Positions 19,613 through 22,663 of a stretch of 64,000 bases of DNA are shown in pieces. The notes beneath the pieces were generated by a model. It was not told the origin of the DNA. It searched no databases and worked only from the letters and a program-made list of their open reading frames with translations. This stretch comes from an uncultured Butyricicoccus sp. (GTDB lineage: Bacteria; Bacillota; Clostridia; Oscillospirales; Butyricicoccaceae), in contig CALWBL010000006.1 in assembly GCA_944376065.1 (NCBI GenBank), forward strand, positions 1 through 64,000, in the 5' to 3' direction. A program made the position numbers and the translations under genes. Every line of letters starts with the position of its first letter. The stretch's first letter is position 1.

Positions 19613-20107
19613 TTAGGCTTGATATTCAGCCTTAATTTTAGCGTCCTTAGCACAAACTTCATCAGCCATATCTTTTTTAAACTGCTCCAACTTTTGTGCA
19701 AGAGCATCATCAGACAGAGCTATCATTTGAGCTGCTAAAATTGCAGCGTTTTCCGCACCATCAATAGCAACACAAGCTACTGGAATACCTTTGGGCATCT
19801 GAACCATAGAAAGCAAACTATCCATACCACCCATAACACTTGTACCCATAGGCACACCAATAACAGGTAAAGTTGTATAAGCTGCAAGCACACCTCCAAG
19901 ATGAGCAGCCTTGCCAGCGGCAGCGATAATAACGCCGAAACCATCATTTTTTGCATTTTTTGCAAGGGTTTCCGCTGCCAGCGGGGTACGATGTGCAGAA
20001 ACGATACGCACTTCAAACGGAATTTCAAATGTTTTAAGTTTGTCTATACATTTGCTCATAACTTTCAAATCACTATCAGAACCCATTACAATACATACCT
20101 TTTTCAT
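19613..20107 (-). CDS. purE: N5-carboxyaminoimidazole ribonucleotide mutase (class I PurE)
   Basis: 164 residues, first structural gene of the operon. It converts N5-CAIR to CAIR. Motif GSDSDLKVM at residues 9-17 and VRIVSAHRTP near residue 37 (catalytic His) are class I signatures; the GKAAHLGGVLAAYTTLPVIGVP segment follows. Class I enzymes normally need PurK, which is not in this operon, so purK should be elsewhere or the organism relies on high CO2. GGAGG lies nine bases before ATG 20107. The leader upstream carries a short ORF and a terminator. Confidence 0.95.
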   Translation of the reverse strand: MKKVCIVMGSDSDLKVMSKCIDKLKTFEIPFEVRIVSAHRTPLAAETLAKNAKNDGFGVIIAAAGKAAHLGGVLAAYTTLPVIGVPMGTSVMGGMDSLLSMVQMPKGIPVACVAIDGAENAAILAAQMIALSDDALAQKLEQFKKDMADEVCAKDAKIKAEYQA

Positions 20108-20143
20108 TGCGAAAATCCTCCAAAACCTAAAATATACTGGTTG

Positions 20144-20183
20144 ACCAAAAAATAAATGCAGGATACAACTGTACCCTGCATTT
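20144..20183 (-). terminator. Terminator/attenuator in the purE leader
   Basis: On the minus strand AAATGCAGG (20183-20175) pairs with CCTGCATTT (20162-20154) across a 12-base loop and is followed by ATTTTTTGG. It lies after the promoter and before purE, so transcription of the whole operon must pass it. Its 5' arm begins three bases after the stop codon of a 27-codon leader ORF. Confidence 0.7.
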
Positions 20184-20186
20184 TGG

Positions 20187-20270
20187 TTATTTGGTTATAA
20201 AAATGCCTGCAAAAGTGCCATGCTTGTAAACATATGTCTGGCTTAGTAAAAAAACGCCTGAACCGAGCAT
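20187..20270 (-). CDS. 27-codon leader ORF upstream of purE
   Basis: ATG 20270 with an AAGGAGG site seven bases upstream opens a 27-residue frame starting MLGSGVFLLSQTY and ending GIFITK, with its TAA at 20189-20187. It starts roughly 40 bases after the predicted promoter and stops immediately before the terminator stem. TGCAGG inside the ORF (20211-20206) repeats part of the terminator's 5' arm and could pair with its 3' arm instead. The ribosome at the stop codon would cover the terminator stem, so translation would favour read-through. The peptide is hydrophobic and has no run of a single amino acid. Function as an attenuator is inference. Confidence 0.55.
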   Translation of the reverse strand: MLGSGVFLLSQTYVYKHGTFAGIFITK

Positions 20271-20313
20271 GATAATGCCTCCTTATGCAGTCAATGTGTT
20301 ATCCATATCCTTT

Positions 20314-20342
20314 ATTTTATCTAGTAATGTTTATTGTTTCAA
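20314..20342 (-). promoter_or_regulatory. Promoter of the purine operon
   Basis: Minus strand TTGAAA (20342-20337), exactly 17 bases, then TAAAAT (20319-20314). It drives the leader ORF, the terminator and purE to the 173-residue gene. No G-box purine-riboswitch core was found in the short leader. The stretch from 20343 to 20419 holds no further feature that I can see. Confidence 0.65.
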
Positions 20343-20419
20343 GCATTTTTATTTGTGTTTTCAAAAATCGTATACTTGCCCAAAAGGAAAGGGGCAATTA
20401 TCACAAGGTTTGTCGTGTT

Positions 20420-22663
20420 CTACTCTTGTCTTTCATATTTTTCTAGTAATTCACATGCAGAGTCGACGTTTTGGCGTTCACGTTTTCTAAGCATCTCGGC
20501 TGTTTGGCGCACTTCATCATCTAAAGCACCAGACACACATTCATCAATGAGCGGTAAAAGCTTGTCAGCCGTTACATCACTAAGCTGTATACAGGTTCGA
20601 CTTCCAATATATTTAAGAAATCCATCTACTTTTATATCGTAGCTCATTCCGATGACAGGAACACCAGCAGCAGCTGAAAACATAAGCGAATGAAGTCTTA
20701 TACCAATAACAGTTTTCATGCGAGCTAGAATACCGATAGTAGTTTCAATAGATTGGCGTTTTGTGACAATATAGTATGGACATTTTAGTTTGCTTCCTAT
20801 CTGCTCTGCGGGCTCTAGGTCTGCTGGATATTCAATAGGCACAAAAAGCGGAATAAGCTCATACTTTTTATAAGCGTATTCAGAAGCCTTAACGATTTCG
20901 TCCATTACATCGTCAAGACCTTTCCATTTTCTAATGCCCAGACCTATATAGTTTTTGTCAAGCGGTATATTACATTCTTCAAACGCTTGATTTACAAGCA
21001 AATCACTTGCAGGCTTTAGTATAATAGTAGGGTCAGCAGAAAGTCTGATATCTGGCTTTACAATGCCCATGCTGTTTAGTTCTCCACGGGATAAATCATC
21101 ACGCAAAGTTATAATATCAACCGAGCGGTTTATAGTTTTAGTTGCATATTTTCTATTGCTTGGCTTATTTATTGGACCAATACCACAACCATACATTATT
21201 ACCTTACAGCCCATACGTTTTGCTTGGTCTAATGTTAGAAGATAGTATCTTAACGAGCGAGTTGAGGTCACGTCCTGCATAAGACTTCCCCCACCATTTA
21301 TATATAGTGCAGATTTATGGAGCCTTCTGAGAATCTGGTCAATTCTAAATGTATAAACGGCATCCGTACGGTAAACAAGTTTTGTTTCAAGGGGTCTCCT
21401 TGACATTACCGTTATTCTACGGTCTGGGTCAATTTCACGCATTTCTTGAACTATTGCCTTTAGTATTGCGTCATCGCCTGAATTACCCTTGCCATAAGCA
21501 CCACAGATAACGATTTCATCACGTTTACATTTTTTGGCACGTTTAAATCGTCTTATTACCAGCTCATAATTTTCAAGCTGTGTTTTACACATAGCTCTAA
21601 GAGAAAATTGACAATCTGCTTTTTCATAAAGGCGTTTTGAAAATAGTTCACGTTTTTCCTTACTTTGTGCAAAAGACAAAATATATTTTGTCAAAGATTG
21701 TATATCCTTTGGTTTAAATATAAATCCGTTTTCACCGCTGTCTATAAGCTCGCTCATTCCGCCAACATCAGAACAGATTGTTGCGCAGCCTTCTCTCACG
21801 CCCTCAAGAATAGAATAAGGAAAAGTTTCAGATACTGATGTTAGCAAATTTATATCCATTGAGGCGAAAAACTTGTCCATTGAAGTAACCCAGCCGCAAA
21901 ATGTAACTCTATCCGCGATACCAAGGGTTTGTGAAAGTTTTTTCAGTGCTTTTTCGTCCTCGCCGTCGCCTGCTAAAAACAGCCTTAAATTAGGTTGCTC
22001 TTTCACCGCTCCTGCAAAGCCACGAATACATGTAAAAATATCTTTTACCGCTGTAAGTCTTGCAGCAATACCACAAAGCACATCATCTGGTGCTATATCT
22101 ACGCCCCATTGCTCTTTTATATACGATATTCTATCAAAATTTTTTATGGGGTCTTTAAAATCCATACCATTATATATAACACACATTTTTTGCGGGTCAA
22201 ATCCGCGTGTTATAAGCGTGCGCGCCATTCTGTCGGCAACCGGCTGATAAAAGTCCATAAATCTGAGTGCTATTGCATTTAAAGTGCCATAAGTGTATTG
22301 TTTTAATGCATTTTCCATATAATCCAAACGATAATCTGAATGTACAGTTGTCATAAGCGGCAGACTATGTTTTTTTGCTCTAACCATTGCACCGACAAGG
22401 TTGGCTTTTGAGCCATGACAATGCATGATTTCGGGTTTAAATTCTTCTATCAGTTTAAGCACCTTATTTCTGCATGTATAAGGATTTACATATTGGAACA
22501 CTTTAACATTAAGCCCCCGTGAGATAGCCTCTCTTGGAAAATCTCCATCACGAAAGCTAACCAGACACACATCATTTTCCTTGCTTAGTGCCTGCACAAG
22601 CGTCATGATATGGGTTTTAGCTCCTCCGACATCGCCTCCGCCCATCATCTGTAATATTCGCAT
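20420..22663 (-). CDS. csaB: Fusion: GT4 glycosyltransferase + CsaB polysaccharide pyruvyl transferase
   Basis: 747 residues, two enzymes in one chain. Residues ~1-375 are a GT-B fold glycosyltransferase: glycine-rich start MMGGGDVGGAKTHIMTL, then GDGEDEKAL and the donor-binding E-x7-E in SETFPYSILEG. From ~385 the chain restarts as CsaB: IVICGAYGKGNSGDDAIL, YINGGGSLMQDVTS, GCGIGPI, and IGIRLHSLMFSAAAGVPVIG near the end. CsaB adds a pyruvate ketal to secondary cell-wall polymer, which anchors SLH-domain proteins. In most species it is a separate ~360-residue protein. GGAGG lies five bases before ATG 22663. It is transcribed alone, divergently from sdaAB. Confidence 0.9.
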   Translation of the reverse strand: MRILQMMGGGDVGGAKTHIMTLVQALSKENDVCLVSFRDGDFPREAISRGLNVKVFQYVNPYTCRNKVLKLIEEFKPEIMHCHGSKANLVGAMVRAKKHSLPLMTTVHSDYRLDYMENALKQYTYGTLNAIALRFMDFYQPVADRMARTLITRGFDPQKMCVIYNGMDFKDPIKNFDRISYIKEQWGVDIAPDDVLCGIAARLTAVKDIFTCIRGFAGAVKEQPNLRLFLAGDGEDEKALKKLSQTLGIADRVTFCGWVTSMDKFFASMDINLLTSVSETFPYSILEGVREGCATICSDVGGMSELIDSGENGFIFKPKDIQSLTKYILSFAQSKEKRELFSKRLYEKADCQFSLRAMCKTQLENYELVIRRFKRAKKCKRDEIVICGAYGKGNSGDDAILKAIVQEMREIDPDRRITVMSRRPLETKLVYRTDAVYTFRIDQILRRLHKSALYINGGGSLMQDVTSTRSLRYYLLTLDQAKRMGCKVIMYGCGIGPINKPSNRKYATKTINRSVDIITLRDDLSRGELNSMGIVKPDIRLSADPTIILKPASDLLVNQAFEECNIPLDKNYIGLGIRKWKGLDDVMDEIVKASEYAYKKYELIPLFVPIEYPADLEPAEQIGSKLKCPYYIVTKRQSIETTIGILARMKTVIGIRLHSLMFSAAAGVPVIGMSYDIKVDGFLKYIGSRTCIQLSDVTADKLLPLIDECVSGALDDEVRQTAEMLRKRERQNVDSACELLEKYERQE

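Follow-up and report, generated by a model that had tools for sequence, protein, structure and literature searches.

A putative purine-responsive, translation-coupled attenuator in the purE leaders of Oscillospirales

The purE leader in the window

The DNA analyzed here (the window, a stretch of 64,000 nucleotides) comes from a Butyricicoccus-like genome, its nearest purE loci being those of Butyricicoccus MAGs that are 95–96% identical. The first gene of the operon, named purE from its presumed product (164 aa; 19613..20107, minus strand), has homologues throughout the order and is followed by three ORFs that we take, from their sequences, to be purC, purF and purM. A Shine-Dalgarno (SD) sequence of purE, GGAGG, was recognized by reading at 20117..20121 (minus strand). 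Between purE and the upstream ORF, which is glycosyltransferase/pyruvyl-transferase-like (20420-22663), lies a gap of 312 nt that holds a promoter, a strong SD sequence, a leader ORF of 27 codons and a terminator, all on the minus strand and in the order described in the original prediction. The promoter (20314..20342) combines a -35 hexamer TTGAAA (20342-20337), a 17-nt spacer and a -10 hexamer TAAAAT (20319-20314); both hexamers are kept in the alignment of relatives, as GCTTGAAAC...GATAaAAT, and a promoter scan by itself is at the level of chance (9 found vs 7.7 expected). The leader ORF (20187..20270), which encodes MLGSGVFLLSQTYVYKHGTFAGIFITK, starts with an ATG at 20270, 7 nt downstream of the SD sequence AAGGAGG (20278..20284), a site that scores high in nearly all relatives. 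Its stop codon, TAA (20187..20189), had been predicted to touch the 5' arm of the terminator; it is indeed adjacent, ending 3 nt before the stem, and makes no contact with it. The intrinsic terminator hairpin (20154..20183) has 13 pairs and a loop of 4, could be extended by CCAAAA/TTTTGG pairing and is followed by ATTTTTT (20153-20147).

In a covariance-model search, no Rfam family matched the window leader at the gathering threshold, the purine (RF00167) and ZTP (RF01750) riboswitches included, in line with the original prediction, which saw no G-box riboswitch core. The best sub-threshold match, L20_leader (24.4 bits vs the 58.7 needed), was rejected as the identity of the leader, being a generic terminator match. 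Upstream of the promoter, at about 20366-20400 (minus strand), a box TTTTGGGCAAGTnnAnGATTTTT is conserved in Butyricicoccus (L002, L003, L006, L009); related TTTGGGCA...GTACGA...TTT forms occur in Agathobaculum and others, some of them with a TCGTACGA palindrome. This box is possibly an operator for a purine repressor.

Distribution of the leader layout and of riboswitches at purE

Loci of purE were collected from the relatives and from the whole order and oriented, giving 184 distinct upstream regions, and the layout was defined as an SD-led ORF of 10–45 codons with its stop at the terminator stem. Such an ORF is present in 94 of the 119 terminator-bearing, non-ZTP Oscillospirales regions, a count in which related sequences are not independent, whereas dinucleotide shuffles of the upstream sequence yield 10.4 on average and at most 17. 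The leader ORF of the prediction is conserved across relatives, and the layout appears, with peptides that are unrelated to one another, in several Oscillospirales families. None of 12 purE leaders with a ZTP riboswitch has it, and upstream of other purine and pyrimidine genes in the window's own family it was seen once in 88 cases (guaB 0/30, purA 0/28, pyrB/OTC 1/30). Among other orders of the class, an ORF at the terminator was found in 3 of 28 and the pause-like motif described below in none, which suggests that the device is for the most part restricted to Oscillospirales. Two related purE upstream regions from another order (L321, L328) have an ORF with the end PGHLRPDYEWLIPxL; a TGCAG-type terminator follows after 6 nt, and there is no pause motif. 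The ORF is intact in the close relatives of one MAG (L014), but in this MAG a single-base difference alters the leader frame and no stop codon falls at the terminator any longer; the GGGATTTTTGCAG motif of this leader is unchanged.

The ZTP core was recognized by pattern in 14 of the 184 regions, and several of these were confirmed with Rfam. A ZTP riboswitch with a terminator lies directly 5' of purE in other Oscillospirales families (L165, L176, L178, L182, L188, L189, L197, L199, L204, L211, L213); within the window's own family it was encountered once, by pattern (L214). The terminators of ZTP leaders (L188, L197, L203, L213 and others) have common GGGCAGTCCT/GGGCACACT stems, whereas those of the leader-ORF type are CAGG-based. 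Few genomes of the order, 26 of 147, have a purine riboswitch, and one such riboswitch is located 5' of purE (L194). Given this scarcity, and since families of the same order have the ZTP riboswitch at the same place, the leader ORF device appears to be a functional substitute for a riboswitch at purE. Many lineages of Oscillospirales have neither.

Peptide, RNA pairing and a pause-like motif in the leader ORF

The leader peptides comprise 89 distinct sequences of 14–39 residues, in which reading disclosed no repeated regulatory codon. Pairwise dN/dS values of the leader ORFs range from 0.3 to 3 and point consistently neither to constraint nor to a frame. As an RNA, the ORF does not fold (mean folding z 0.08). 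The second copy of TGCAGG that had been proposed as an alternative partner for the 3' arm of the terminator is real (20211-20206); as a partner, it is a chance occurrence, since pairing of the ORF with this arm is not above that of shuffled ORFs (duplex mean z -0.20) and since TGCAGG is kept in a relative (L011) whose terminator arm lacks it. Neither the folding nor the duplex tests of the ORF found an antiterminator.

A protein-level motif search returned G-x-x-A near the C-terminus (log-likelihood 158 vs 89–95 for shuffled peptides), with the underlying codons GGC NNN NNT GC(A/G), of whose 40 cases 34 have T as the third base and 38 end in a purine. A conserved peptide was rejected, as this weak signal is accounted for by a nucleotide motif with fixed synonymous positions. 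The unbiased nucleotide motif search gave GG-N6-TGC-R with a log-likelihood of 208, compared with 65–75 for shuffles, and in all three reading frames (36/19/4). Because the synonymous positions are fixed and the nucleotide search finds the motif in three frames, the conserved element is, judging by the sequences, the nucleotide motif, and a role for the peptide as such is not supported.

In its GG-N6-TGY-R form, the motif occurs at 67 sites in 72 leaders, compared with 9.75 ± 2.8 in shuffles, while sites with a pyrimidine at +1 stay at chance (9 vs 9.66 expected). Its density is 10.7 per kb in leaders vs 0.78 in purE coding sequence and reaches a maximum, 25 per kb, 16–30 nt upstream of the 3' end of the stop codon; there are one to three copies in the last third of the ORF, with two or three in many leaders. 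Within a divergent subset of 45 leaders under 65% identical, a spacing scan peaks at 6 (38 sites vs 5.8 expected), and the base at +1 is A in 22 cases (2.4 expected), G in 16 (3.1), C in 4 (2.7) and T in 3 (3.3). The strict motif is absent from 17 of the 45, of which 9 have a relaxed form and 8 have neither. Some coding influence on the motif remains, because in-frame copies are over-represented (26 of the 38 sites).

The spacing of the motif is that of the published elemental pause of RNA polymerase (G-11 G-10, T-3 G-2 Y-1, +1), the consensus of which has been given as G-10/Y-1 G+1 (PMC12288461), as G-10 with TGC-1 G+1 (PMC4457086) and as G-11 G-10/Y-1 G+1 (PMC7707468). Two further preferences, -9 C and -8 A, lie outside this consensus. 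The purine at +1 may simply follow from the preference for G+1 that is already known, although in these leaders A outnumbers G; the restriction of this position to purines hints at an NTP-responsive pause or readthrough. The window motif, GGCACTTTTGC followed by A (20208..20219, minus strand), is kept in congeners and has G-11 at 20219, G-10 at 20218, T-3 at 20211, G-2 at 20210, C-1 at 20209 and A+1 at 20208. The predicted TGCAGG copy overlaps it, an identity that could not be recognized from one sequence. At one place in the congener alignment stand GGCACTTTTGCA, GGCCTTCGTGCA and GGCACGCGTGTA, encoding GTFA, GLRA and GTRV. A degenerate second copy, GGCATTTTTATA (20196..20207, minus strand), is complete in the aligned leaders of L006 and L009 as GGCATTTTTGCA, and a further match, GGTACAGTTGTA (20175-20164, minus strand), falls inside the loop and 3' arm of the terminator, unchanged in L002 and L003 and degenerate in L006 and L009. 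A second pause at GGTACAGTTGTA could lengthen the time available for the decision.

Proposed mechanism and alternative explanations

Translation-coupled attenuation of the purine operon, as originally predicted, is still the best reading of the leader, because the ORF ends at the terminator, is conserved and is accompanied by no known riboswitch; the pairing of TGCAGG and a role for the peptide find no support. Specifically, we propose, with a probability of roughly 0.55, that the element in the window is a transcription–translation-coupled attenuator that acts on the operon for de novo purine synthesis and senses purine NTPs, a counterpart of the pyrBI and pyrE attenuators. More tentatively, and at somewhat less than even odds, the same device may operate across the order in Gram-positives classed as uncoupled. 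The polymerase would then be the sensor, through elemental pauses that need A or G as the next nucleotide, the switch would be the ribosome on a leader ORF whose sequence does not matter, and the device would hold the place that the ZTP riboswitch has in related families.

In the median, 71 nt separate the start codon from the putative pause site and 19 nt the pause site from the stem. The distance from the end of the stop codon to the predicted release point varies little (median 41 nt; 5–95%, 34–51) and is roughly that at which a ribosome would follow immediately on the polymerase. Polymerase would be held at the pause, and meanwhile a ribosome would bind the leader and catch up. Escape would require ATP or GTP, since a purine has to be incorporated next. 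If these are low, escape would be slow and the ribosome would follow close behind, standing at the stop codon while the polymerase makes the terminator; given the distances between pause, stop and release point, it would cover the 5' arm when the polymerase is at the T tract, and transcription would read through into purE. With plentiful purine NTPs the polymerase would depart early, the ribosome would lag or be released, the hairpin would form and transcription would stop. The sign of the feedback would be right, a slow pause leading to readthrough and a fast one to termination, and the leader peptide itself would have no function. Bacillota have been assigned to the bacteria with runaway transcription (PMC13323073); coupling therefore cannot be taken for granted and would have to come about through the pause. 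Under runaway transcription, termination would be the default and the pause necessary.

The same anatomy could serve a sensor that is the ribosome itself, responding to GTP/ppGpp, to the supply of formyl-Met or to the general rate of translation, any of which would settle whether it arrives at the stop codon in time, with a pause that only synchronizes the two machineries, as the pause sites in the trp and his leaders do. We consider this unlikely, even though it accounts equally for the placement of the pause and the stop and would fit the presence, at the same place in related families, of the ZTP riboswitch, which reports a shortage of 10-formyl-THF, the source for formyl-Met and also a cofactor of the purine pathway. 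Mere synchronization does not require that C and T be strictly excluded from +1, where A is even commoner than G, and in a system with no antiterminator poor initiation would lower expression, which is the wrong sign for a response to folate shortage. An arrest peptide, whose ligand would stall the ribosome near the stop codon via the nascent chain and so block the terminator, is improbable: G-x-x-A did also emerge from the protein-level search, and the ends AGIFAHK, SGIGAHK and SGIIAYF, each followed by the stop codon, resemble one another, but the nucleotide pattern, which recurs out of frame, accounts for G-x-x-A, and the spread of dN/dS speaks against a conserved peptide in one frame.

We see equally little likelihood that the motif is a DNA operator, or an RNA site bound by a repressor or antiterminator protein, to which the ORF would be secondary. 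The C at -9 and A at -8 do make a weak dyad, GCA-N4-TGC, in which both inner pairs are possible at 18 of the 38 sites; however, conservation is much stronger in the right half than in the left, G...A/G and never G...C stands at the outer pair, the dyad fades in out-of-frame sites, and the end of the ORF at the terminator would be left without explanation. A small hairpin or dimer operator at GCA-N4-TGC was rejected, as the element is asymmetric and not extended. Classical leader-peptide attenuation, by alternative hairpins or by amino-acid-sensing codons, has the TGCAGG repeat in its favor and is nonetheless very improbable, in view of the unfolded ORF, of pairing with the terminator that shows no excess, of a repeat that is not conserved as a partner and of the lack of a repeated regulatory codon in the 89 peptides.

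Comparison with known systems

Attenuation that senses NTPs through the distance between polymerase and ribosome is known for pyrimidines in enteric bacteria; to our knowledge it has no purine counterpart, and our search of the open-access literature found none. The layout suggests that the cell reads its purine supply from the closeness of the ribosome to RNA polymerase, as E. coli does with pyrimidines. If this is true, Butyricicoccus, Agathobaculum, Flavonifractor and their relatives, which are common in the gut, would control purine synthesis by the polymerase–ribosome distance, comparative genomics would have a case of elemental pause sites selected for regulation, and coupling would be made locally in bacteria thought to be uncoupled.

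With the trp and his attenuators, the window leader shares an ORF, a terminator and a synchronizing pause, here putative, but it has no regulatory codons and no antiterminator pairing. The ZMP/ZTP riboswitch (pfl, RF01750) occupies the same place 5' of purE in other families of the order, likewise with a terminator; there, an RNA aptamer senses ZMP/ZTP and no leader ORF is present, whereas the window leader has no aptamer. In Bacillus subtilis, the tlrB (yxjB) leader combines NusG-dependent pausing with translation of a leader peptide (PMC6851288, PMC12288461). It differs in that an antibiotic stalls the ribosome and in that the pause is a T-rich NusG site rather than GG-N6-TGY-R. The pyrBI and pyrE attenuators of E. 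coli sense UTP by coupled transcription–translation attenuation. They have in common with the purE leaders a short leader ORF, translated in the pyr systems and recognized here by its SD sequence in 94 of 119 leaders from sequence alone, and a terminator within reach of the ribosome; in pyrE, the upstream ORF rph likewise ends just before the terminator. In the pyr systems NTP-sensitive pausing of the polymerase and the proximity of the ribosome decide the fate of the terminator, for which the enriched consensus motif provides putative equivalents of pause and sensing; the irrelevance of the peptide sequence and the lack of an antiterminator hairpin are common to both, as found here by sequence tests. 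The differences are the discrete consensus elemental pause with A or G at +1, as opposed to U-rich pausing, the occurrence in Oscillospirales, within a phylum (Bacillota) classed as uncoupled, and the operon itself, which is for purines in the window and for pyrimidines in the pyr systems.
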